Assembly: GCF_000515215.1 (NCBI RefSeq)
Contig: NZ_KI911557.1
Location: 3,653,741-3,717,740, forward strand
DNA length: 64,000 nucleotides
Direction: 5' to 3'
Origin: Methylomonas sp. 11b
GTDB taxonomy: Bacteria; Pseudomonadota; Gammaproteobacteria; Methylococcales; Methylomonadaceae
Shown: positions 51,780 to 64,000 of the stretch, piece by piece
Numbering within the stretch: position 1 is the stretch's first letter
Layout of the letters: the number at the start of each line of letters is the position of its first letter
Program-made: the position numbers and the translations under genes
The notes under the pieces: generated by a model
What the model was told of the DNA's origin: nothing
Database searches by the model: none
The model's input: only the letters and a program-made list of their open reading frames with translations

Positions 51780-52367
51780 ATGGCTTCGTACCGGGGAGTG
51801 ACCGGCGCGCTTTTGGCGTTGGAATCGTTCTTGACTAGCAGATTACCTGCCGAGCTGAGCAGCGAGCCCACCAATGCCCAAGCAAAACTGTTGGGTAGCG
51901 CAGACATCGCCAATATCCTCACCGGCAACCTGCTGGGTATCTACCTGCACCGAATTACCATCGATCCGCACGGCCGGCAGCGCTCCTTTGCGCAGCGCGG
52001 CAGCGATCAAAGCGCTCCGCAGGCCGAGCTGCCAGTCAATCTGCATTTCCTGTTAATCGCCAACGCCGCCAGCGCCACCATCGAAGCCGACTTGCTGAGT
52101 TGGGCGATGGTCGAGCTCGCCAACCAATGTCAGCTCGACATTTCGCATATTCAAGACATCGACGACGAATGGGGCCAGGCCGAAGTGCTGAATATCGCCC
52201 CGGACGAGATGACCACCGAGGACTTGATGCGCATCTGGGATGTCTTCAAATCGCCTTACACCAGCACCGTACCCTATGTGGCGCGCACCGTGCGCTTGCG
52301 CTTGCAGCGGCCGCGCACGGAAGGGCCGCCTGTATCGACACGGATATTTCCCGGAGGCACGGTATGA
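51780..52367 (+). CDS. eCIS DUF4255 protein (Pvc16-type)
   Basis: 195-aa protein of the DUF4255/Pvc16 N-terminal family. It opens with YRGVTGALLALESFL, contains LGIYLHRITIDPHGRQ, then LPVNLHFLLIANAASATIEADLLSWAM, and ends with VPYVARTVRLRL, the usual block order. In PVC/AFP-type particles this protein caps the sheath-tube end. ATG 51780 is set by a strong AGGGGAGGG. It is first in the operon, and its stop overlaps the next start (ATGA). Confidence 0.9.
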   Translation: MASYRGVTGALLALESFLTSRLPAELSSEPTNAQAKLLGSADIANILTGNLLGIYLHRITIDPHGRQRSFAQRGSDQSAPQAELPVNLHFLLIANAASATIEADLLSWAMVELANQCQLDISHIQDIDDEWGQAEVLNIAPDEMTTEDLMRIWDVFKSPYTSTVPYVARTVRLRLQRPRTEGPPVSTRIFPGGTV

Positions 52368-53143
52368 AAGCCGTCAAAGTGCTGGAAACCAATATCCTCT
52401 ACGCCAGCGACGTGATCTATTGGCTGGACGGCAGCAGCGCCGCGCAGGAAGCCGATATGCGACGGCTGAGCGAAGTCGTTGTTCTGCAACTCGATACCCA
52501 TCCCGCCGATCTGCAATTTTTACACACGCCAGGCAAAACTGCGTTGTGGCGGCGTTCGGCCGGCAAAACGGTGCAAGGCGCGCCTAGCGAGGCGGACAAA
52601 TTGCGTCCGGCAGAAGTGGCATACGCTATCGTCGGCTCGGTAGCCGACAGTCAACGCCGCTATGTCTCGCGCCGCTTTGAGATTCAAGCCGGTAACGCGG
52701 CCGGGCACAGCGTTGTACTTTATCCGACGCCATTCGGTACCAAGTTAGGTCGCGGCGGCGGTTTGCGCGGCACGCTGCGGTTCATCGGCAGCAATGCTCC
52801 GGTCGTCTGGGCCTTGCTGACGCTGACGGTCAATCTGGGTGTCGGAGGCAATTTGATCTGTCGCGCCCAAGCCGACGCCAATGGCGATTTCATCATCGCG
52901 ATGCACCGGCTACCGCCCTTGCCGGAAGGGGTGGTCGAGTATGCCGCCACACTAAGTATCCGGGCTCTTGTTGCCGCCAATGCCACAGAAGCTATCGATC
53001 CGGACGATCTTGTAGCGATGACGCTGGGTGCGCTAAATGCCGAGAATAGTTTTGCCGCCGAGCTTACCCTGGCCGTGGTGCCCGGCGAAATTGGTTTAAT
53101 CCGGTCCTTTAATCGGGATCATCTTGCCGTTCAACCCAATTGA
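52364..53143 (+). CDS. eCIS-associated protein of unknown function, 259 aa
   Basis: 259-aa protein read from the ATGA overlap with the DUF4255 gene. The first ~110 residues (MKAVKVLETNILYASDVIYW) are mixed alpha/beta; residues ~110-240 look like a beta-sandwich, with RRFEIQAGNAAGHSVVLYPTPFG and then CRAQADANGDFIIAMHRLP, resembling a carboxypeptidase-regulatory-like repeat. No standard Pvc/Afp number can be given. Its place between cap and sheath suggests a structural or surface role. Confidence 0.72.
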   Translation: MKAVKVLETNILYASDVIYWLDGSSAAQEADMRRLSEVVVLQLDTHPADLQFLHTPGKTALWRRSAGKTVQGAPSEADKLRPAEVAYAIVGSVADSQRRYVSRRFEIQAGNAAGHSVVLYPTPFGTKLGRGGGLRGTLRFIGSNAPVVWALLTLTVNLGVGGNLICRAQADANGDFIIAMHRLPPLPEGVVEYAATLSIRALVAANATEAIDPDDLVAMTLGALNAENSFAAELTLAVVPGEIGLIRSFNRDHLAVQPN

Positions 53144-53205
53144 GTCATGCATGAGTTGAGTTCGTCCTTTAAACGCTGGTCCACATAAAAATTAAGGAGG
53201 GGAGC

Positions 53206-55383
53206 ATGCCTGAATATCTTGCACCGGGTGTGTTTGTAGAAGAAGTTAGCTTTCGCGCCAAATCGATCGAAGGGGTGGGGACCAGCGTCACGGCGGTGGT
53301 CGGTCCCACGCGTTTCGGACCGTTGCGGGGTAATCCCGAGGTAGTGACTAGCTTTGGCGAATTCAGCCGCATCTACGGCGACATCCAAAATCTCACTCTG
53401 GCCGGCGTATCGGTTCTTAATCACACCGCCATCGCCGCGAAAGCCTTTTTCGACGGCGGCGGTAAACAACTCTATGTGTCGCGGGTCGGCAATTTTCCGC
53501 AAAACGCGCCTGGGGTGTCGACGCGGTCTGTGCCAAATGTGCTGAGTTTCAGCAGCCGGTTTCCGGGAACGATGGGCGATTTCACGCTGGAATTGCTCTG
53601 GCGCGATAGCGAAAATCTGTTAAAAACCGAGGCCACTTCGGCGCCCGCCGAGGGAGAAGTGGTGTTTCTGAATGCCACCGGCTTGACCAATGCCGTGCGC
53701 TCAGCCGGCATCGCCGCGCAATTTCCCGACGAACGCTTTCCCTTGAACGTTCGCGCCCTGGTGCGCCGGGAAGGCGATCATTTCGTCATCGTCAATAATC
53801 GCTGCGAACTGGATACCGCCGACGATGTCGCGGCGGGCGGCACGGCCCTGCGGCCGAACGGCCAGGCCGACGGCAGTCAGGGTGTATTGATGGCGGCCGG
53901 CTTGGTGAACGGTCCCGGTGTTGCGGTCAGCTACACCCGGGTGTTTGCGAAAAACCCCAGCAGCGGGTCCTTGGCTAACGGTACGTCGGCGGTGTTAACC
54001 CTGAGCGCGGAAACCAACTTGTCGGTGTATACCGGCGCGGCGCATTGGGGCACCCTAACCGCGTTGCGCGGTACGCTGAATGCGGCCGGCAGTGAGTTTG
54101 TGGTGGACGGCGGCGGTTTGAATGTGGGCGTCAATGCCGACATTACCCTGCCGCTGGCGGCTTTGGCTGCTGCGCCGAATACGGTGCGGGCGGTGGTGGT
54201 GCAGCGCAATTTCGATATTGCCGTGCATGCCGGCGGCCGCGACGGCCCGGTGATTTACAGTTATGGCGATATTTCCAGCGCTCCCGACGCAAAAAACAGT
54301 CTCAGTGCGATGTTGCCCGTCAATCCCGACAAACGTTACGACCAATTGACCAGCCCGGTCAGTTGTACCCTTAGTGCCGGCATTAGTGGGGCAGACGTGG
54401 TGGCAGCCTTGTACAGTCTGTTTGAAGCGGATGGTTTAAATCCCGGTCCGATGTCGGTCCAAGGCCCGCGCTATTTGATAAACCTGTCCGGCGGCAGCGA
54501 TGGCAACGTGCCCGGCGCTGTTCAATACGGCGGCGTGGAGGACGAGGTCAACGGCAGTAGCGGTTTTGTTGCCCTGGAAAATATCGAAGATGTGTCGATC
54601 GTGATGACTCCGGCAGCGGCGGCTGACGCCACTAATCATCAAGCCATCGTCGCCGAGGTACAAAAACACTGTCTGAAAATGCGCTATCGGGTCGGCATTG
54701 TCGATAGCCGTGACGGCATGGCGCTGTCGGAAATACGCGAGTTCCGCTCCAACTTCGACGATTCGCGGCTGGCGCTGTACTACCCCTGGGTGGTCATTGC
54801 CGATCCGCGCGGCCTGCTCAGCACTATCAACGTGCCGCCGTCCGGTTTTGTCGCCGGTGTGTATGCCAATACCGACGTACAGCGAGGCGTGCATAAACCG
54901 CCGGCCAACGAACCGGTCATCGGCGCCTTACGATTTGCCCAGGAAATCAACCGCTTCCAGCAGGAATTGCTGAATCCCAACGGTATCAACTGTCTGCGCT
55001 CGTTTCCGGGGCGCGGGCATCGGGTTTGGGGTGGGCGGACCTTGTCCAGCGATCCTGAATGGAAATATGTCAACGTTCGTCGTTACTTTTTGTACCTAGA
55101 ACGCTCCATCGACAAATCCACGCAATGGGCGGTGTTCGAGCCCAACGGCGAGCGGCTGTGGGACAACATTCGCCAGACCGTGGAAAGCTTTTTGTACAAC
55201 GAATGGGTCAACGGCCGACTGTTGGGTAGCGCCAAAACTGCTTATTTCGTGCGCTGCGATCGCAGCACGATGACTCAAAACGATCTGGACAATGGCCGCT
55301 TGGTCTGCGAAATCGGCGTGGCCGCTTTGAAACCGGCCGAATTTGTGATTTTCCGCATCGGCCAAAAAACCGCCGACGCCTGA
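53206..55383 (+). CDS. eCIS contractile sheath protein
   Basis: 725-aa sheath subunit. The N-terminus PEYLAPGVFVEEVSFRAKSI, then AVVGPTRFGP and KAFFDGGGKQLYVSRV, and the C-terminus with NVRRYFLYLERSIDKSTQW, TVESFLYNEWVNG and IGVAALKPAEFVIFRI are hallmarks of the phage/eCIS sheath family (Pvc2-4). About 700 residues is at the long end; the extra sequence (~190-420) would form outward-facing domains. ATG 53206 has AAGGAGGGG upstream. Contraction of this tube drives the inner tube and spike outward. Confidence 0.95.
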   Translation: MPEYLAPGVFVEEVSFRAKSIEGVGTSVTAVVGPTRFGPLRGNPEVVTSFGEFSRIYGDIQNLTLAGVSVLNHTAIAAKAFFDGGGKQLYVSRVGNFPQNAPGVSTRSVPNVLSFSSRFPGTMGDFTLELLWRDSENLLKTEATSAPAEGEVVFLNATGLTNAVRSAGIAAQFPDERFPLNVRALVRREGDHFVIVNNRCELDTADDVAAGGTALRPNGQADGSQGVLMAAGLVNGPGVAVSYTRVFAKNPSSGSLANGTSAVLTLSAETNLSVYTGAAHWGTLTALRGTLNAAGSEFVVDGGGLNVGVNADITLPLAALAAAPNTVRAVVVQRNFDIAVHAGGRDGPVIYSYGDISSAPDAKNSLSAMLPVNPDKRYDQLTSPVSCTLSAGISGADVVAALYSLFEADGLNPGPMSVQGPRYLINLSGGSDGNVPGAVQYGGVEDEVNGSSGFVALENIEDVSIVMTPAAAADATNHQAIVAEVQKHCLKMRYRVGIVDSRDGMALSEIREFRSNFDDSRLALYYPWVVIADPRGLLSTINVPPSGFVAGVYANTDVQRGVHKPPANEPVIGALRFAQEINRFQQELLNPNGINCLRSFPGRGHRVWGGRTLSSDPEWKYVNVRRYFLYLERSIDKSTQWAVFEPNGERLWDNIRQTVESFLYNEWVNGRLLGSAKTAYFVRCDRSTMTQNDLDNGRLVCEIGVAALKPAEFVIFRIGQKTADA

Positions 55384-55404
55384 ACCCTAGACTGGAGATA
55401 AACC

Positions 55405-55866
55405 ATGGCTACATATCGGGAAACGCCCTATGGGGTGTTCAATTATCTGGTCAACCTGGGCGACGGCAGCGAAGGCGAAGTGCAGGGCGGCTTTTCCGAG
55501 GTATCGGGTCTGAATGCCGAAGTGACGGTAGCGGAATACCGTAACGGCAACGAAGCGGTGAACTATGTACGCAAGATTCCGGCCATCAACAAGGCCGGCG
55601 ACGTGACGTTGAAACGCGGCGTGATCGGCGCTGAAAACATTTATAACTGGCTGGAGCAAATTCGCGGCGGCGATGTGACCGCCAAGCGCGACGTAGTGAT
55701 CAAGCTTAAAAACGAAGATCCCACCAGCGCCAGTGCTGTAGTCACCTGGAAACTGGTCAGGGCCATGCCGATCAAATGGACAGGGCCGACCTTAACCGCC
55801 AAGGGCGGCAGCGACGTGGCGATGGAAGAGCTGGTGCTCTCGGTCGAAACCATCATCCAAAGCTAG
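55405..55866 (+). CDS. eCIS inner tube protein, first copy
   Basis: 153-aa tube subunit of the T4 gp19/Pvc1-Pvc5 family. It has the order GFSEVSGLNAEVTVAEYRNG, KRGVIGAENIYNWLEQIR, KLVRAMPIKWTGPTL and AMEELVLSVETI. It stacks as hexameric rings inside the sheath. It lies 21 nt after the sheath gene. Confidence 0.94.
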   Translation: MATYRETPYGVFNYLVNLGDGSEGEVQGGFSEVSGLNAEVTVAEYRNGNEAVNYVRKIPAINKAGDVTLKRGVIGAENIYNWLEQIRGGDVTAKRDVVIKLKNEDPTSASAVVTWKLVRAMPIKWTGPTLTAKGGSDVAMEELVLSVETIIQS

Positions 55867-55881
55867 CCGGAGCGATAGCGA

Positions 55882-57384
55882 ATGGAATTGTTAGCGGGAG
55901 CGCGTATTGCCTTGACGCCACGGCCGGTTGAACGCCGGATTGCGGCGCTGCAAGCGGCCATGCTCGGCCATTGTCCGGGCCGGGTCAGGCTTGAGCGCCT
56001 GCTGCAATTGCCGGCGGCGCTGGCTGATATGCGTGCGGTCGGATACGGCTTGGCGGTCGATGCCTTGTTGCGCCCCGGTGCTGTCAGCGAACTTTACCAT
56101 CTGCCGATACCGTTGCAGTCCAGCGCCGAATTTCACGACATTTTCCCGGATGCGCTGGATTCCGAGACCGCATACGTCAGCCTGTTAGCCGGTAAAAAAG
56201 CCTGGCTGGGGCTGGCGGTAGACGATTTTTTCTCCAACGGCGGTGAAAAACTGTGGGTGCTTCGTATACCGGAAAGTGCGGGACAAGCCGGTTTTCTGCC
56301 CGCTGCCAACACGCAATTGCACGATATTGCTACCCTCCAAGGCTTGGCCTGTGTATTGGTGATTCCGGCCTTGGGCGTAGTGAGTTTTCCCGATTTGGAA
56401 CGTCTGCAAATACCGCCGCGCCTGCCGGATATTCCCAGGGTACGTCTTGAAAACAACGATCCGCAGTTCCTGCCGTGCACGCAAAATACCGATGACGATC
56501 ACCGCGAACGCCGTTACAGCAATGAGTTAATCGACATGCCGCCGCCTTGGCAATTGCCGCAGGTGTTGCGCGGCATGCTGCAATTCATCAGCAGTCATCG
56601 GCCGGATTTGCAATGTCTGTTCACCTTGCCGCTGTCCTACTCCGGCGAACTGGATAGCCCGGTAATCGATCCGGCGGCTTTGAGCGCACTGGCCGGGTAT
56701 CAAGAAAATCGGGATGCGGCGCAAGCGCTAAGGTATGTGCAGTTTTTGTTTCCATACTTACGCGGGCCGCGCTTTGCCTTGCATAGCCCGGTTGGTTTGA
56801 TCGCCGGCCAGCAGGCGGCAGCGGCGCGCCGCGACGGCCCTTGGCGCTCGATGGCGGCCAAACCCTTAAACACTGACGCTTTGCCCTATCCGCGTTTGTC
56901 CATCGCCCAAACCTTGGTGTTACGCGATAAGCCCGGCATCAGCGTGATCAACTATCGCCATTCGTTTAGCGGCGGCGCGCAACTCAGTCTCGACGACGAA
57001 CGCCTCGTGGTGCCAGCCTTGCCGGTCGCCGATTATCCGTTCGACCGCCAGCGATACGACGGTTTTCGTTCCGCGGAAGTGATGCGTTTCCTGGGTTTTT
57101 TGCGCCGGCAATTGCAGGCCTTGGGCGAGCAATTGATCTTTAATCTGGATTACCGCGACCCCCGCCCGCGTTTGCTGCTGGAACAGTTTTTCCGGCGTTT
57201 ATACAGCCAGGGTGCGTTGCGCGGCGCGTCTGCGGAGCAAGCTTTCTCGATCAGCGAATCGACACCGCAGGAAGGGGCGGTGCTCTACGAGATCATGCTG
57301 GCGCCGGCCTTTCCGATAGACAAGCTATTTCTGACCTTCGCCAATCTGAACGGCGAATGGCGTTCGGAGGTGGTCGATGGCTGA
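55882..57384 (+). CDS. Second, divergent sheath-like eCIS protein
   Basis: 500-aa protein. Residues ~105-128 (GLAVDDFFSNGGEKLWVLRI) align with the FFDGGGKQLYVSRV motif of sheath proteins, and the C-terminus (MRFLGFLRRQLQALGEQLIFN, LLEQFFRRLYSQGALRGAS, LAPAFPIDKLFLTF) follows the sheath C-terminal domain pattern. It lacks the PEYLAPGVYVEE start and the long insertion domain of the first sheath. It may form a specialised ring at one end of the sheath. It sits between two tube genes and overlaps the next one by 8 nt. Confidence 0.72.
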   Translation: MELLAGARIALTPRPVERRIAALQAAMLGHCPGRVRLERLLQLPAALADMRAVGYGLAVDALLRPGAVSELYHLPIPLQSSAEFHDIFPDALDSETAYVSLLAGKKAWLGLAVDDFFSNGGEKLWVLRIPESAGQAGFLPAANTQLHDIATLQGLACVLVIPALGVVSFPDLERLQIPPRLPDIPRVRLENNDPQFLPCTQNTDDDHRERRYSNELIDMPPPWQLPQVLRGMLQFISSHRPDLQCLFTLPLSYSGELDSPVIDPAALSALAGYQENRDAAQALRYVQFLFPYLRGPRFALHSPVGLIAGQQAAAARRDGPWRSMAAKPLNTDALPYPRLSIAQTLVLRDKPGISVINYRHSFSGGAQLSLDDERLVVPALPVADYPFDRQRYDGFRSAEVMRFLGFLRRQLQALGEQLIFNLDYRDPRPRLLLEQFFRRLYSQGALRGASAEQAFSISESTPQEGAVLYEIMLAPAFPIDKLFLTFANLNGEWRSEVVDG

Positions 57385-57889
57385 AGTCAGCGAATTCGTC
57401 GCCTTTCGCTTCAAGGTCAATCTGTACAACAGCGACCAGAGCAGCTTGTTATGCAGCGGTTATTTCAGCGAAGTGACCGGCTTCGAAGCGACGATGGAAC
57501 CTAAGGTCATCAACGAGGGTGGCCATAATTGGGGTGAACATCACCGCTCCGGGCCGACTAAATTCGCGCCGATTATTTTGAAACGCGGCGTCACCGACAT
57601 CAACGATTTATGGTCCTGGTTCGACATCACCACCAGCCAGGCCAACTACGGTTACCGGCTGAGCGGCGAGATTATCGTGTTCGGCAATCCCAGCGTCAGC
57701 GGCGGCAACGTCACCGATAACGCGGTGCTGGTTTGGAAACTCAGCGGGGTGTTGCCGACCAAGTTCAAAGGCCCGGATTTGTCGGCCACTGCCAGCCAGG
57801 TGGCGATCGAAGAACTGCATCTGGTGCATCAAGGCCTGGAATTGCAAAGGCCGGCTCCAACCAGTACGCAAGGCAGGGGGACAGCATGA
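57377..57889 (+). CDS. eCIS tube protein, second copy
   Basis: 170-aa protein of the same gp19/Pvc5 fold: FRFKVNLYNSDQSS, GYFSEVTGFEATMEPKVINEGG, LKRGVTDINDLWSWFD, VLVWKLSGVLPTKFKGPDL, AIEELHLVHQGLEL. It diverges strongly from the 153-aa tube protein. In PVC/AFP particles such a second tube protein connects tube to spike. It overlaps the divergent sheath gene by 8 nt and the next gene by 4. Confidence 0.92.
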   Translation: MAEVSEFVAFRFKVNLYNSDQSSLLCSGYFSEVTGFEATMEPKVINEGGHNWGEHHRSGPTKFAPIILKRGVTDINDLWSWFDITTSQANYGYRLSGEIIVFGNPSVSGGNVTDNAVLVWKLSGVLPTKFKGPDLSATASQVAIEELHLVHQGLELQRPAPTSTQGRGTA

Positions 57890-59139
57890 TAGCCATAGAA
57901 CGCGGCAAACTGATCCCGGTCAACGGCGACAACGACAGTCCTGATCTGGATAACGCCATCGACGTGCAATTCAATCCGTCCAGCCTGAAAGTCAGTCTGG
58001 CGAACACGTTGAAAGAAAACGCCCGCAACGGCAATAGTCGCGCCGCGCAGTTTGTCGATAAGAGCTCGTCCAACTTGACCATAGAACTGATTTTCGACAC
58101 CACGTATATCGAAGCGCCCGGCGGCGGAGAGGGCGGCGGGCAGACCGCCAGCAGTGCCGGCAGCAACAGCAGCTCCAAGAAAGCCATCGAGCAGGGCTCG
58201 GACGTGCGGCTGGAGACCAAAAAAATTGCCGATACCTTTATTAAGCCGGTAGAAGACGGCAAAAAAATGAAGGCGCCTAAGCGCTGTTTATTTCAATGGG
58301 GGGCGTTTGAGTTTTTGGGCCTGGTACAGAGCTTTGACGAAACCCTGGATTTCTTCTCGCCGGAAGGCCGGCCGCTGCGCGCCACCGTGTCCTTAAAGCT
58401 CAGCGAAGACCGCTACCAATTCCGTAACCGTGCTGTGGAGCAAGCCGCCCGCAACACGCCCAGCCTGAGTTCGACCGGCGCCGGCCCGCAAGGCGGTTCC
58501 GGACAGAATGCCGCACCGGTGCCCGGCGGTAGCGGCGAAGGTGCCGGTAACTGGCGGGATACTTCGCTGTTTAACGGCATAGAGTCACCGAGAATGCCGT
58601 CTCTATCGGTGGTGGCGGTGCCTAGCCTGAGCTTGAGTGCTTCGGTGGGCATTAGCGGTGGGATGGGTTTTGGCTTAAGTGCTGGCGTCAATATCAGTGG
58701 TGGTATCTGCGCCAATGTTTCGGCAAGCCTGACTGCCTCAGTCAGTGTCGGTGGCGGCGCTGTCGCCGGTTCGACCAATAGTGCCGGCGGGGCAAAAGCT
58801 GCGCCACAAGCGGTACCACCGGCAAGTCCGGCGTTTAAATTCGGCAATTCCGCCAGCCTAGGTACCGGCATTGAAGGTGCGTTCAGCCCGGCTGGAAAAA
58901 AGGGCAGCTTGAATGCAGCTAACATTCAGACAGGCAGTGTGCCGCTAAGAGTCGATGCTGCGCAAACCTTTGGCGGCGTGCAAAACGGACAAGCGGTAAC
59001 TGCGGCGACCGGAGGGAGACCCTTATCAACAGCCGCCGCGAACCAAGCCGGTTCGGCAACTGTGACCCGCAAAAGTAGCGGCGTATCGGTAAGCAGTTTA
59101 TTAAAAGCCGCCGCCGACAGTGGCGTTGGTTTCGATTGA
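57886..59139 (+). CDS. eCIS tube-initiator-like (Pvc7/CIS_tube) protein with low-complexity tail
   Basis: 417-aa protein. The first ~190 residues are the CIS_tube domain: VQFNPSSLKVSLANTLKENA, SNLTIELIFDTTYIEA, PKRCLFQWGAFEFLGLVQSF and RPLRATVSLKLSEDRYQFRN. Typical Pvc7 proteins continue into a LysM domain; none is visible here. Instead residues ~220-410 are rich in Gly, Ser, Ala and Val (SLSLSASVGISGGMGFGLSA...), with repeated short ISGG/SVGGG-like units. ATG 57886 overlaps the tube gene stop (ATGA). The tail may be a flexible linker or an assembly region. Confidence 0.82.
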   Translation: MIAIERGKLIPVNGDNDSPDLDNAIDVQFNPSSLKVSLANTLKENARNGNSRAAQFVDKSSSNLTIELIFDTTYIEAPGGGEGGGQTASSAGSNSSSKKAIEQGSDVRLETKKIADTFIKPVEDGKKMKAPKRCLFQWGAFEFLGLVQSFDETLDFFSPEGRPLRATVSLKLSEDRYQFRNRAVEQAARNTPSLSSTGAGPQGGSGQNAAPVPGGSGEGAGNWRDTSLFNGIESPRMPSLSVVAVPSLSLSASVGISGGMGFGLSAGVNISGGICANVSASLTASVSVGGGAVAGSTNSAGGAKAAPQAVPPASPAFKFGNSASLGTGIEGAFSPAGKKGSLNAANIQTGSVPLRVDAAQTFGGVQNGQAVTAATGGRPLSTAAANQAGSATVTRKSSGVSVSSLLKAAADSGVGFD

Positions 59140-59152
59140 GCAGGAATTAGAA

Positions 59153-59320
59153 ATGCCGGTTTTGATAGACGAAGTGATATTGGACGTGCAAGACGGTGTC
59201 ACCGAATCCGCCGAGCAACAACCGGCTGCCCAGCAGACGCCGTTGTCGCCTGCGGAACTCGAATTGACGCAAATGCTGGAATTGATCAGGCAGAGGCAGG
59301 AGCGGTTGAGGATTGATTGA
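59153..59320 (+). CDS. Small eCIS protein, DUF5908-like
   Basis: 55-aa protein, MPVLIDEVILDVQDGV... then ...PAELELTQMLELIRQRQERL. The start pattern MPV-I-E-(V/L)-(I)- and a helical, charged C-terminus match the small DUF5908 proteins found in eCIS loci at this position. ATG 59153 has AGGA about 8 nt upstream and lies 13 nt after the CIS_tube gene. Its role in the particle is not established. Confidence 0.7.
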   Translation: MPVLIDEVILDVQDGVTESAEQQPAAQQTPLSPAELELTQMLELIRQRQERLRID

Positions 59321-59350
59321 GAGGAGAAAGTTGAGAACATAGATTTTAAT

Positions 59351-59389
59351 CCCCTCACCCTAGCCCTCTCCCGGAGGGAGAGGGGATTT
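59351..59389. repeat. CCCTCACCCTAGCCC-type palindromic repeat
   Basis: CCCTCTCCC (59364-59372) pairs with GGGAGAGGG (59376-59384), preceded by CCCCTCACCCTAG. This sequence type is dispersed in many gammaproteobacterial intergenic regions. As RNA it makes a strong 9-bp hairpin and could attenuate transcription inside the eCIS operon. Confidence 0.75.
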
Positions 59390-59424
59390 GTAAAAGGGTT
59401 TTAGGAGACTTTAAGTTGCGGAAG

Positions 59425-59821
59425 CGGTTTCTTCCCGTATGCCGCGCCGAGCACCGGAGCTTTTGAACGGACAAATCGGCAGGATAGCCGATTTGCATGC
59501 GGAGCACCCGTGAGGGCGAGGTACAGGGACGTACCGAGTGAGCAGCCCGTAGGGGCGCCGCATGGATGCGGCGCGTTGTCGAAGGGGCAGGAAGCCCCTT
59601 TCGGCAACCCCGTTCAAAAGCGAGGAGCGCAGGGAATAAGCGGCATCCGGGTGGCCTTTCTTTTGGTGATTTTTCTTTGGCGGAGCACAAATTCGCCTGG
59701 AGCGAATTTGAACAGCCGACTGGCTGGCCCGCAGGGCGAAAACCACGGACGGTTTTCGTAGCGAAAGTATCGCGGTTGTCGGTCCGCGAACCGACATTAG
59801 AAAAACCGTCGCGTTAGCGAC
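59425..59821 (-). repeat. Dispersed intergenic repeat, copy C (inside the eCIS operon)
   Basis: Reverse complement of copy A (4289-4550) with the same ends: GTCGC-N4-GCGAC hairpin at 59808-59821 and the GCCGCGCCGAGCACCGGAGC block near 59440-59460. It is longer than copy A because of two extra segments, roughly 59467-59550 (CGTGAGGGCGAGGTACAGGG) and 59690-59790 (CGAAAACCACGGACGG). With the palindrome at 59351-59389 it fills the 539-bp gap between the DUF5908-like gene and the gpD-like gene. Confidence 0.85.
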
Positions 59822-59859
59822 TCAAAAATAAATAAACAACAACAAATAAAAACAACACT

Positions 59860-60906
59860 ATGCCCGAAACCGCCTTCACCAGCTCCCGCCCAACGATCAA
59901 GATCGACGGCGAACAACGCGATGACCTGCAGCAGGCCTTGCTGGCGATGCAAGTCAATCTGCCCTTGCACGGCTGCGCGCATGCCGAATTGCAGCTGTCC
60001 AATTGGGGTAGGCCGGAGGGTGGGCAAGATCCTGACTTTGCCTTGAACGACATAGCCTTGGGTGCCGGCGTCGAGATCGAAATGGGCAGCGACACCCCGC
60101 AACAGCTGTTCAGCGGTGAGATTACCGCGATAGAGGAAAGCTACGGCGAAGGCGCGCCCAACATCGCGCTGCTGCTGCAAGATAGACTGCACAGATTGGC
60201 GCGCAGTCGGCATAACCGCAGCTTTGAAGATCAAAGTCCTGACGATTTAGTGCAAGCCGTCGCCGGCGAGGCTGGCCTGCAAGCCGATGCCGCGCTGTCC
60301 GCCATCACCGCCACTTGGCACCAACTCAACGAAAGCGATTTGGCGTTTTTAATGCGGATCGGCAATCGCTTCGATATTGCGGTGCGGCTGGACGGCAATC
60401 GTCTGCGCGCCAAGGCCGAAGAATCCGATCCTAATCCGATCGAGCTCAGCGCCCAGGACAGTGCCCTGAAAGTACGCTTGATCGCCGATTTGAATCATCA
60501 ACCGCTCAGCAGTCAGGTCAATGGCTATAACCTGGCTAGTGCTGAACCAGTGGATTTTACCGCCGACGCAATGACGCCGGCGCCCAGCGGCACCAGTGCG
60601 GCGGCGGCTTTAGGCAATCTGAGCTGGCCCGGCCCGGAAATTGTCCCGCAGCCGTTTCCCGGCACCAGCAGCGAGGCTGAAGCCTACGCCAAGGCCGCGT
60701 TCAAACGCCAAGCCAAACGCTTTATTCAAGGCGAGATCGTCTGCCAAGGCGAGGCGACCCTAAAACCAGGCCGGGAAGTGGAATTGGACGGCGTGTCGCC
60801 GCGCCTGAAAGGCCGCTACCAAATCGTGCATTGCGTGCACCGCTTCGATAACAACAGCGGTTTCGAAACGCATCTTAAAGTCAATAAAGGCGGGTGGCAG
60901 TCATGA
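59860..60906 (+). CDS. eCIS spike protein, gpD-like part
   Basis: 348-aa protein of the phage late control D/VgrG N-terminal family: an initial domain with DDLQQALLAMQVNLPL, then GRPEGGQDPDFALNDIALGAG, LFSGEITAIEESYGE, DLVQAVAGEAGLQADA, LAFLMRIGNRFDIAVRL and a C-terminal PGREVELDGVSPRLKGRYQIV. It forms the spike hub. In PVC/AFP systems gpD- and gpV-like parts are one VgrG-type protein (Pvc8); here they are separate, joined by an ATGA overlap. Confidence 0.9.
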   Translation: MPETAFTSSRPTIKIDGEQRDDLQQALLAMQVNLPLHGCAHAELQLSNWGRPEGGQDPDFALNDIALGAGVEIEMGSDTPQQLFSGEITAIEESYGEGAPNIALLLQDRLHRLARSRHNRSFEDQSPDDLVQAVAGEAGLQADAALSAITATWHQLNESDLAFLMRIGNRFDIAVRLDGNRLRAKAEESDPNPIELSAQDSALKVRLIADLNHQPLSSQVNGYNLASAEPVDFTADAMTPAPSGTSAAAALGNLSWPGPEIVPQPFPGTSSEAEAYAKAAFKRQAKRFIQGEIVCQGEATLKPGREVELDGVSPRLKGRYQIVHCVHRFDNNSGFETHLKVNKGGWQS

Positions 60907-61544
60907 ACAGTCACGCCTTGGGCAATCTGCACAGTTTGCAACTCGGCCAGGTCACCGACAACGCCGACCCGGATAGCCGTGGCCGCATCAAGGTGCGCTT
61001 GCTGGCGACGCAGATGGAATTATGGGCCGGCGTCGTCGCGCCGTCCGCCGGTCAGGGGTACGGTGCCAGTTTTGTGCCGCGTCTGGAAGAAATCGTGGTG
61101 CTGGCCTTCATCAACCCGGAAATGCCGTTGGTGCTGGGCAGTGTTTGGGCCGGTAGCAGCAGCGTGCCGGCAGAGGCCGATCCGCAGGAAGATCATTATG
61201 TGATCCGCACCCCGCAGGAAACGGTGTTGGATTTCGACGACGGCAACGGCCCGAAAGTGGAATTGCGTACCCGCTCCGGTTACAAGATTTCGATAGACGA
61301 AGCCGGCGGCGGGGAAATCGTTATCGAGCGCGCCGACCAGAGCGTTACGCTCAACAGCAGCAGCATTGCGGTGCGCAGCAGCGGCAGCGTCACGGTCGAT
61401 GCCAGCACAGTCACCATTAACGCCAGCATGGTGACGGTGAATGCCAGCATGTCCAAGTTCAGCGGCGTGGTGCAAGCCGACACCGTGATCGCTACCTCGG
61501 TGGTGGGCAGTTCCTACACGCCGGGCGCCGGCAATATTTGGTAA
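60903..61544 (+). CDS. eCIS spike protein, gpV-like part
   Basis: 213-aa protein. An OB-fold (~12-95; GQVTDNADPDSRGRIKVRLL, GASFVPRLEEIVVLAFIN, PLVLGSVWAG) is followed by a beta-helical needle rich in V, T and S (VTLNSSSIAVRSSGSVTVDA, TINASMVTVNA), as in gpV/VgrG tips. A separate PAAR tip protein would be expected further on. It starts at ATG 60903, inside the gpD stop. Confidence 0.92.
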   Translation: MNSHALGNLHSLQLGQVTDNADPDSRGRIKVRLLATQMELWAGVVAPSAGQGYGASFVPRLEEIVVLAFINPEMPLVLGSVWAGSSSVPAEADPQEDHYVIRTPQETVLDFDDGNGPKVELRTRSGYKISIDEAGGGEIVIERADQSVTLNSSSIAVRSSGSVTVDASTVTINASMVTVNASMSKFSGVVQADTVIATSVVGSSYTPGAGNIW

Positions 61545-61550
61545 GGGATT

Positions 61551-63215
61551 ATGAAAATAGAGCAGGCGCTGCATCCGCTTAAATTGAAACCGCCGTTTTA
61601 TCAAGAGGGCGGACAATGCGGCTTGCATCGTTATCTGGATGCGGAGTTTATTAATCGCTTCAAGCAGGACATGCAGCGTCGCCAGTTTGATTTGCCACAG
61701 TTCAATGCCTGGCAGCAGGAGGAACGTCACAGTCGCCATGGCCAGCAGCCGGTGCTGCGCCTACCGCTGCATCGGGCCTTTCATATTGTCAGTTGCGAAG
61801 TGGTTTGCGACCGCTTCGGCGAGCCGGCGCTGGATCCGCAAAAAATTAGCTCGGCCGGCTTCGTGATTCGCCGGCTCAGTGGTGGTCGCGAGCAGGCCTG
61901 GATGCTGGAAGACGGTGAAGCGTTGGGCTGGCAAGACGCGCCCAGCGAACTGCGTGACCCTGATTTGCATCGCCGGCTGTGCGCCAACGGCGTGCTGCAC
62001 AAACGCGATGATCAGGCGGCCTATAGCGGCGAGGAAGTACATCCCTTGCATGTGTTAAAAACCAGCGATGCCAACCGTAAAACCCACACGCTGTTGTTCG
62101 GTTATTTGCCGCTCGGCGGTTTTTATTATCTGCGTGATGTCAGTCAGGCTTTCGATAGTACCGATCAAGCGCAAACCGCCAGCGTCGCGGCGGCGATGTT
62201 GCCTTGGCCGTTCGGTTATCGGCAGCCGTTGAATCAAACCTGGCTGGCCGAACACAGCAAGCCGGTGGCGCAAGGCGTAGCCAGCAAAGCCTGTTTCGAG
62301 TTGCTGAGAATGCTGGTCAACCGCTATCACCTCGGCGAAGCCGGCATTGCCGAGAATGCCGTGCTGGAAAATAAAGCGCAGCAACTGTGGCTGTACGACG
62401 AAGCCAAACTGCCGGCGGGTTTGCAAGGCCAAGCCTACACCGAAATCAGCCAGGGCTTGTTCGCCGCATATCGGCAGCAAAGCTTTTACAGCTATCTACA
62501 AGCCTGCTTTGCATTAGGCGGCGAAAACCCGCTGGTGCGTTGGCTAATTCTGCAAGAACAAGTGATCGATGCGGTCGGCGGCTTGGACAAATTAGGGGCA
62601 TTACCGGCCTTGCCGAATGCCAACGGTGTGGGCAATCTCAATTTGACCCTGTTGCTGCTGGCCGCCGATGCCCAGGAAATTCGAGTGTTGCTGGGCCAAC
62701 GCCTCAGCGATCAGGCTCTGAGCAAGGTCAAGGAAATCCCTCTGCCCAAGTTTGCGCAAAATGCAGGCGATGTCTATCAAATAGTGGCCTTCGTCCGTGC
62801 CAAAAACGATCAGGGGCAAGAACAGATTCAATGGGCCAATGCCGACACCCGCAGCATTCACTTCCGCGTCGCCGCGCCCTTCGATCCGGATGCCAGCCGA
62901 CCAGCCTTGATCCAGATGCCGTCGTTGGCCGATCTGCGCCGTGGTCTGGCCAAGGGCGCGGCGATGATTACGCCGGCCGATACCTTCGATTTGATGAACA
63001 AGCTGAAATTGAACAAAGGCGCCAGCGAAGACACGGTAAAAGACACTTCCGGCCCGGATTTTGGCATTCAATGGATTTGTTCGTTTAGCTTGCCGGTGAT
63101 TACGCTGGTGGCGATGATTTTGCTGATGATCATGATCTCGCTGCTGAACATCGTGTTTTTCTGGCTGCCGTGGGTACGGATTTGCTTGCCGTTTCCAAAA
63201 ATCAAAGGAGATTAA
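61551..63215 (+). CDS. eCIS-associated protein with C-terminal membrane segment, 554 aa
   Basis: 554-aa protein not assignable to a named family. The N-terminal ~480 residues are soluble, with HRYLDAEFINRFKQDM, VSCEVVCDRFGEPALDP and TLLFGYLPLGGFYYL. Residues ~509-545 (CSFSLPVITLVAMILLMIMI and SLLNIVFFWLPWV) are strongly hydrophobic and probably one or two membrane helices. AAGGGA precedes ATG 61551. It sits between spike and gp25 genes, where PVC/AFP has no equivalent I know. It may anchor the particle to a membrane. Confidence 0.72.
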   Translation: MKIEQALHPLKLKPPFYQEGGQCGLHRYLDAEFINRFKQDMQRRQFDLPQFNAWQQEERHSRHGQQPVLRLPLHRAFHIVSCEVVCDRFGEPALDPQKISSAGFVIRRLSGGREQAWMLEDGEALGWQDAPSELRDPDLHRRLCANGVLHKRDDQAAYSGEEVHPLHVLKTSDANRKTHTLLFGYLPLGGFYYLRDVSQAFDSTDQAQTASVAAAMLPWPFGYRQPLNQTWLAEHSKPVAQGVASKACFELLRMLVNRYHLGEAGIAENAVLENKAQQLWLYDEAKLPAGLQGQAYTEISQGLFAAYRQQSFYSYLQACFALGGENPLVRWLILQEQVIDAVGGLDKLGALPALPNANGVGNLNLTLLLLAADAQEIRVLLGQRLSDQALSKVKEIPLPKFAQNAGDVYQIVAFVRAKNDQGQEQIQWANADTRSIHFRVAAPFDPDASRPALIQMPSLADLRRGLAKGAAMITPADTFDLMNKLKLNKGASEDTVKDTSGPDFGIQWICSFSLPVITLVAMILLMIMISLLNIVFFWLPWVRICLPFPKIKGD

Positions 63216-63217
63216 GG

Positions 63218-63613
63218 ATGCGTACGCCGGTACCGGAAATTTTGAGTTGGCCCCTGGGAAATATCGACTCCGACGGGCGCTTGAGCTGGACGCGTGACGA
63301 TCAGAGTATTCGCGAAGTGATGCTTAACATCCTGCTGACCCGGCCCGGGGAACGCTTGCAACGGCCAAACTTCGGTGCCGGTTTATTAAACTTCGTACAT
63401 CAACCCAATAACGAAACCACCCGGCATTTGATTGCGGGTGTGGTGCGCAAATCGCTGGAGACCTGGGAACCTAGAGTGGAAATCGACGAAGTGCAAGTGC
63501 AGGCCAGTCCGGCCAGCGTCGCCGATGTGCATATCAATATCCGCTACCGGCTGCGTAACAGCCAGCGTCCGGCGGAACTGGGATTCACGCTAAACCTGAG
63601 CCTGCCGGCTTGA
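63218..63613 (+). CDS. eCIS baseplate protein, gp25/Pvc9 type
   Basis: 131-aa gp25-like baseplate wedge: IREVMLNILLTRPGERLQRPNFGAGLLNFVHQPNN is the family core, then EPRVEIDEVQVQASP and NIRYRLRNSQRPAEL. It joins the sheath start to the baseplate. ATG 63218 has AGGAG and AAGG upstream; a longer reading would overlap the previous gene. Confidence 0.95.
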   Translation: MRTPVPEILSWPLGNIDSDGRLSWTRDDQSIREVMLNILLTRPGERLQRPNFGAGLLNFVHQPNNETTRHLIAGVVRKSLETWEPRVEIDEVQVQASPASVADVHINIRYRLRNSQRPAELGFTLNLSLPA

Positions 63614-63632
63614 GGCTGCAAGAGAGGCCGCT

Positions 63633-64000
63633 ATGCCATTACCGGTACCGAATTTAGACGACAGACGCTTCGACGACCTGGTTGCCGAGGCCAAGGCGCG
63701 GCTGGCGAGCCATTTGCCGGAACTGACACAGATTGCCCCCGGCGACCCGCTCAACAGCTTTGTCGATTTGTTCGCCTGGCTGACCGAAACCATTTTGTAT
63801 CGCGCCAATTTAATTCCGGAGCGCCAGCGCCGGGTATTTTTGAATTTGTTGCAAATTCCGGTGCGCGCTGCCCGACCAGCCAAAGGCATCGTCAGCGTTG
63901 ACGCTGGGCCGACCAGCGTGTTGCCGGCGGCATTATTGGCGGACGGCAGCCAACTGCGGGCTGGAAAACAGATTTTGACGGCGGTTGGCGAATTGCAACC
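63633..64000 (+). CDS. eCIS baseplate assembly protein, Pvc11/baseplate-J type (3' partial)
   Basis: The first ~122 residues are in the window and the frame is open at the right edge. The start PLPVPNLDDRRFDDLVAEAK, then PGDPLNSFVDLFAWLTETILYR and ERQRRVFLNLLQIPVRAARP, is the family N-terminus of the large 'putative baseplate assembly protein' of eCIS loci. AGAGAGG precedes ATG 63633. Confidence 0.92.
   Translation, partial: MPLPVPNLDDRRFDDLVAEAKARLASHLPELTQIAPGDPLNSFVDLFAWLTETILYRANLIPERQRRVFLNLLQIPVRAARPAKGIVSVDAGPTSVLPAALLADGSQLRAGKQILTAVGELQ

Follow-up and report, generated by a model that had tools for sequence, protein, structure and literature searches.

The right end of a 64,000-nucleotide stretch of the Methylomonas sp. 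11b chromosome (the window; bases 3653741-3717740 of a 5.41 Mb genome in one contig) carries, at positions 51780-64000, the left part of an operon for an extracellular contractile injection system (eCIS), with all named genes on the + strand. As judged from the encoded protein families, the locus is supported as an eCIS with a complete gene set, and its gene complement is supported as a recurring eCIS subtype rather than a one-off. The novel part of the subtype, and its least understood component, is a 554-residue protein, here called p554, whose conserved greasy helix probably touches or enters a membrane. The joint claim, that the locus encodes a complete phage-tail-like eCIS whose baseplate is of the Tail_P2_I type and whose spike comes from two genes, and that p554 is a baseplate subunit engaging a membrane, is held at even chances.

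The locus was read through the window and for 39 kb rightward on the same chromosome, positions there being given as window-continued coordinates. The sheath, the tubes, the gp25 and J baseplate proteins and the GPD/V spike are all encoded in one operon, and the eCIS markers Pvc16_N terminator, AAA ATPase and eCIS_core protein were all found at the locus. Twenty-eight proteins (20 of the operon region and 8 further) were scanned against Pfam, and the other open reading frames up to continued position 103259 were inspected by eye; no head, portal or terminase protein was found among the 28. A first-pass annotation of the window had named such downstream genes as the sign of a prophage, and its eCIS reading is upheld because that check came out negative. 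The genes that it had listed were recovered at their positions on the + strand, with Pfam matches to Pvc16_N, sheath, tubes, CIS_tube, GPD, base_V, gp25 and Baseplate_J, and the ATPase and cargo genes forecast to the right of 64000 appeared there as an AAA ATPase and an eCIS_core gene. The Cis12- and Cis13-like proteins sought on that side were matched weakly, by NCBIfam CIS12 at 91 bits (curated cut-off 860) and by CIS13 at 35, 31 and 18 bits in three proteins (curated cut-off 370), the latter a weak N-terminal likeness. The label "DUF5908-like" for a 55-residue protein did not hold, no Pfam match being found at E<=0.1. In PMC8213781 the PAAR spike tip is given as a core eCIS domain and LysM as a shell domain; no PAAR protein was found within the locus, and the only PAAR_motif match of the genome lies at G000:C1:3516537, about 190 kb away.

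Conservation of the operon was followed in 32 loci from other named genome records, many of them metagenome-assembled genomes (MAGs), that were found by a p554-alignment scan; chosen for encoding p554, they give no measure of its frequency. Their genera include Methylomonas, Hahella, Teredinibacter, Thalassolituus, Marinibactrum, Aliikangiella, Marinobacterium and Thiohalocapsa, together with records labelled Azoarcus, Nitrosomonas and Desulfocapsaceae (MAGs) and others, and the closest named p554 matches are Methylomonas records at 94-96% identity. Single-sequence search detected the full set of 17 left-hand genes in 23 loci, and locus-built profiles at matched position did so in 24, the other 8 (L027, L030, L031, L033, L035, L040, L047 and L049) stopping at contig ends. 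By the same profiles the order was identical in 32/32 loci, with p554 between gpV and gp25 in every one, and the split spike that had been annotated in the window as separate gpD and gpV frames was likewise split in all 32. The features that had been called non-standard are present, but their one-off status is not borne out, since the order, the second sheath, the split spike and the 259-residue and 554-residue proteins recur across loci and thus define a subtype. The place of p554 is kept also in G283, G079 and G057, which are more distant, and in a second Methylomonas variant, G013; by locus search, the 259-residue gene was undetected in G283 and G079 and the 55-residue gene in G283, and in both G283 and G079 the second sheath scored best against the main-sheath profile. 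The order is similar on a Rhodococcus opacus plasmid, which carries DUF4255, a hypothetical gene, sheath, tube, a sheath C-terminal protein and an insert with DUF4157 genes, followed by tube, a hypothetical gene, a small gene, a VgrG/Pvc8-family gene, gpV, a p554 relative, gp25 and J, and then by a tail protein, one more gene and an ATP-binding protein.

p554 belongs to no family of Pfam, NCBIfam or PHROG by sequence match, and sequence searches of the PDB paired it with no solved CIS chain, none of the antifeeding prophage (AFP), the Photorhabdus virulence cassette (PVC) or AlgoCIS coming up. No Pfam family was matched at E<=0.01 by any of 26 diverse members; in a set of 44 close members, a match came up for one (E 0.026). 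A protein search recovered 253 relatives at E<=0.001, and a tail-region search with a divergent member recovered 852 at E<=0.01 among 943 candidates. The membrane segment noticed in the first-pass annotation is a single, strongly hydrophobic segment (19-residue Kyte-Doolittle mean 2.85), which was found at the C-terminus in 120/120 of the best relatives (best 120 of the 253) and in 120/120 of the divergent branch (best 120 of the 852). It is by far the best conserved part of p554, with a mean pairwise identity over residues 507-550 of 0.91 in 44 sequences versus 0.57, 0.43, 0.65 and 0.66 in the other four parts, and of 0.63 in 26 diverse sequences versus 0.36, 0.26, 0.40 and 0.38 elsewhere. 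The tail holds a median uncharged stretch of 42 residues with a strongly hydrophobic core. Mean net charge is -0.47 before the segment and +2.76 after it, the latter being greater in 111/120 relatives, and in the divergent branch it is -0.28 before and +2.88 after (119/120); the Rhodococcus relative has the motif and a long extension after it. AlphaFold2 modeling with 44 sequences (mean predicted local distance difference test, pLDDT, 81.1; predicted template modeling score 0.61) gave a body that is folded up to roughly residue 450 and is joined by a linker of low confidence to a helix at 509-545.

Among 61 genomes, comprising this one and relatives, p554 was found in 17 and Pvc16_N in 22 (E<=0.001), and all 17 fall within the 22; among 299 Pseudomonadota genomes, this one included, Pvc16_N was found in 15 and p554 in 3 of those 15, the p554 scan there scoring at most four candidates per genome. 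p554 therefore marks a subset of eCIS. Pvc16_N without p554 was seen in G002 and G030 (weak Pvc16_N matches; G030 is 78% complete) and in G005, G034 and G046 (strong), and a more sensitive profile found no p554 in these five. The eCIS loci of G005 and G046, read in part, have other layouts, with a fused spike in one G046 locus. The locus L082 of G005, of the same genus (G005:C1:3353000-3372999), is a different eCIS type with a separate gpV-like gene; two frames match the eCIS_core protein profile and no sheath was found within the 20 kb read. Over 25 loci, with organism relatedness ignored, the pairwise divergence of p554 correlates with that of the other structural genes at r 0.83-0.98, and with gpJ, gpI and the second sheath at 0.97-0.98; such co-divergence is also expected from vertical inheritance of the whole operon.

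From homology, the sheath-tube, baseplate, terminator, ATPase and eCIS_core roles can be predicted: gp25, J and the Tail_P2_I protein would form the baseplate on which tube and sheath are assembled, the spike would be built from two genes, the DUF4255 protein would cap the tube and sheath, and the eCIS_core cargo would be delivered by the machine. The three proteins with a weak Cis13-like N-terminus may be fibres or fibre adaptors, which the particle probably carries. A model is proposed in which the 450-residue body of p554 docks on the spike or the baseplate hub while the flexible linker bears the hydrophobic helix, so that the helix would insert into a membrane upon particle contact, and this insertion would trigger or guide firing. 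Tentatively, at somewhat less than even confidence, p554 is put forward as a particle-borne subunit dedicated to membrane insertion in a whole eCIS subtype of several phyla. We lean slightly to the target membrane rather than the producer's because fibre-like proteins are present and positive residues follow the helix; a producer-side anchor is nearly as likely, and by analogy would be favoured by the nearest solved relative, which acts inside its own cell.

Several points weigh against this model. The charge and hydropathy counts cover the best 120 of each set of relatives. In the AlphaFold2 model the helix has a pLDDT of 57-85 by block, and the linker is mostly below 50. Hydropathy alone proves nothing, because a stretch of the second sheath (2.23) also exceeds the usual cut-off, as do, by a small margin, the 259-residue protein and gpV. 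The segment is too near the C-terminus for the positive-inside argument to carry much weight. Furthermore, a plain anchor would not usually be near-invariant, and tight packing between proteins could be the reason. The segment may also lie in the interior of the particle and not in a lipid bilayer.

Possible, if doubtful, is the alternative that p554 anchors the machine at the producer's own inner membrane, the machine then being not released but like the type VI secretion system (T6SS) or the membrane-dependent cytoplasmic CIS of Streptomyces. The nearest solved sheath and baseplate J come from the S. coelicolor CIS, which requires the membrane protein CisA according to one report (PMC12237407), and another describes a predicted membrane anchor gene in one haloarchaeal CIS clade (PMC11566945). 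As described there, both proteins have layouts unlike that of p554; the gene for CisA comes just downstream of baseplate genes, and the core cluster of the haloarchaeal CIS has its anchor gene upstream. That no lysis family turned up in general Pfam scans of the operon proteins also fits retention in the producer, whereas the three Cis13-like proteins suggest fibres, and the positive charge after the segment is contrary to the preference of an N-in tail anchor. It is unlikely that the tail is a buried structural element that never meets a lipid membrane, for example a helix bundle closing the spike or a cage. Its extreme conservation would fit such packing, and with the sole PAAR match so distant another protein could cover the spike end, but the long uncharged stretch, hydrophobic core and low-confidence linker are typical of membrane helices. 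Quite improbable is an injected, membrane-inserting effector, for which a tape-measure-related membrane effector of a Streptomyces CIS offers a precedent (PMC13277306). The p554 model is without a large coiled coil, its gene is fixed between gpV and gp25, and its divergence tracks gpJ, gpI and the second sheath, kinship ignored, unlike that of mosaic cargo. A prophage or R-type tailocin remnant is very improbable, for although myophages also have sheath, tube, gp25, J and Tail_P2_I genes, Pvc16_N, AAA ATPase and eCIS_core are present, no head or packaging protein was among the 28 scanned, and the genome's two further sheath genes sit, by eye, in separate phage-like gene runs.

The closest solved machine is the cytoplasmic CIS of S. 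coelicolor (subtype IId), in which both the main sheath (8bky, Cis2, E 3e-96) and, at E 3e-36, baseplate J (9gtp) found their best PDB matches. It differs from the system here, which has a two-gene spike, three fibre-like proteins, a second sheath and a Cis7 seemingly with partial LysM. AFP and PVC gene sets hold sheath, tubes, CIS_tube, gp25, J, DUF4255 and ATPase, and all of these are found here, but the sheath matches to AFP, PVC and AlgoCIS are weaker (E 4e-47 to 1e-21 over their sheath chains). Machines of that type have a fused, VgrG-like spike and a LysM-bearing Cis7, in contrast to the separate gpD and gpV frames of this subtype. In the thylakoid-anchored CIS of Anabaena, too, a protein of the baseplate region ends in a hydrophobic helix (PMC8894136); the transmembrane segment there is on the fibre-like Cis13, a protein different from p554 and at another operon position. 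In the eBAP3/eBAP5 (Tail_P2_I) group of eCIS, fibre-like proteins likewise come after a baseplate adaptor of the Tail_P2_I kind (PMC12923769).

It is an open question how contractile machines make contact with a membrane ahead of firing, and the characterised solutions differ: fibres, the T6SS envelope complex, the thylakoid Cis13 helix and CisA. The p554 family, as yet unnamed, has a hydrophobic segment that hardly varies and a single fixed place between spike and gp25, and its subtype has been seen in Gammaproteobacteria, MAG records labelled Azoarcus, Nitrosomonas and Desulfocapsaceae, and one Actinomycete plasmid. If the proposed model is true, p554 adds a further way, beside fibres and cell-envelope anchors, to couple a baseplate to a lipid bilayer before firing. 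Small and deletable, it would allow a direct test, in Methylomonas relatives such as strain LW13, which carries the locus (L052), of the side, producer or target, on which the tail acts in docking.

The second sheath alone had one sub-threshold Pfam match and PDB matches at E 0.14 or worse. A profile of its family (332 relatives at E<=0.001) did match solved sheaths, in their C-terminal domain and with a best E of 1e-6, in agreement with the earlier label of a divergent sheath-like protein. AFP and PVC have extra sheath proteins, and by this analogy the second sheath may form a baseplate-proximal sheath layer. The 55-residue protein, with relatives in 30/32 loci by single-sequence search, is a candidate Cis6 plug by place and size. 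As first annotated, the Cis7-like protein has no LysM by Pfam, but about half of the repeat seems kept: the family profile (best PDB match 9rce_H, 7e-5) can be aligned across the latter half of the LysM in S. coelicolor Cis7 (9gtp_P; weak, whole-sequence E 0.001), and the half-LysM motif R....[YF]N..E..[RK] is kept in 30/31 Cis7 sequences, so that retention of half a repeat is probable. A long low-complexity Gly/Ser/Ala-rich linker then leads to a C-terminal GF[DE] in 30/31, which may be a docking peptide. The lone sequence without this end is that of L029 (Methylomonas fluvii), whose Cis7 gene was read in two frames, of 393 and 118 residues, by frameshift or assembly error.

Table 1. Features of the eCIS operon, in window coordinates and, where marked, window-continued coordinates.
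Feature	Position	Strand	Evidence
DUF4255 / Pvc16_N tail terminator (Cis16-like), 195 aa	51780..52367	+	PF14065 E 1.1e-30
259-aa all-beta protein, cap-adaptor candidate	52364..53143	+	candidate role from position only
Main sheath (Cis2-like), 725 aa	53206..55383	+	PF04984, PF17482; Phage_sheath_1 E 9e-22; PDB 8bky E 3e-96
Tube protein 1	55405..55866	+	PF06841 (Phage_T4_gp19) E 4.5e-31
Second, divergent sheath protein, 500 aa	55882..57384	+	family profile vs sheath C-terminal domains
Tube protein 2	57377..57889	+	PF06841 (Phage_T4_gp19) E 3.6e-25
CIS_tube (Cis7-like) protein	57886..59139	+	PF19266, E 1e-23
55-aa protein, spike-plug (Cis6) candidate	59153..59320	+	position and size
Spike hub half, gpD-like	59860..60906	+	PF05954 (Phage_GPD) E 2.2e-16
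Spike needle half, gpV-like	60903..61544	+	PF04717 (Phage_base_V) E 6.4e-17
p554, 554 aa: body 1-450, linker 451-508, hydrophobic helix 509-545	61551..63215	+	sequence and AlphaFold2
p554 residues 507-550, near-invariant hydrophobic segment	63069..63200	+	mean pairwise identity 0.91, 44 sequences
gp25-like baseplate protein (Cis9-like)	63218..63613	+	PF04965 (GPW_gp25) E 5.7e-22
Baseplate J (Cis11-like)	63633-65804, ends 1804 bases beyond window	+	Baseplate_J E 8e-12; TIGR02243 223 bits, cut-off 155.8
Tail_P2_I/Cis12-like protein	65814-68243 (continued)		
p300	68454-69356 (continued)		
p563	69370-71061 (continued)		
p1224	71361-75035 (continued)		
p539	75045-76664 (continued)		
AAA ATPase	76657-78636 (continued)		PF00004 E 2.3e-25
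eCIS_core (DUF4157) protein, 1273 aa, cargo candidate	78640-82461 (continued; L004:15381-19202)		PF13699 E 2.7e-31
TPR protein	82458-83426 (continued)		

The eCIS_core protein and the TPR gene sit after the ATPase in 8/8 fetched genomes of the genus. The eCIS_core protein is a mosaic there: conservation covers the N-terminus, the eCIS_core part and the final 190 residues, while the middle differs in 3/8. Those of L070-L074 resemble the protein of this operon nearly throughout (81-100% in full 60-residue blocks), whereas in L075-L077 parts of the ends and the eCIS_core part are kept and every block of 301-1020 is below 40%. Residues 458-497 resemble, to the eye, an HNH-type nuclease motif, without support from any family search.

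To the right of the TPR gene, a methyltransferase, a group II intron maturase and housekeeping genes follow (Pfam scan, the rest by eye). The maturase gene (RVT_1, GIIM; 85908-87257, continued) adjoins the right side of the operon, and no relatives of it were found among the open reading frames read in eight stretches of the genus and the Rhodococcus stretch. The other sheath genes of the genome, at G000:C1:1800267 and G000:C1:374997 (L002, L003), lie in phage-tail-like runs that are, by eye, probably Mu-like prophages. Within the operon, the gaps at 59321-59859 (window) and 71062-71360 (continued) share matching elements, namely the repeat CCCTCACC...CTCTCCC (59352, 71133) and hairpins of the form GTCGGT.CG.GAACCGAC (59778, 71229). 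The lengths of both gaps seem to vary among other Methylomonas loci (script estimates, with one start codon not located), and mobile intergenic repeats are hinted at by this variation.
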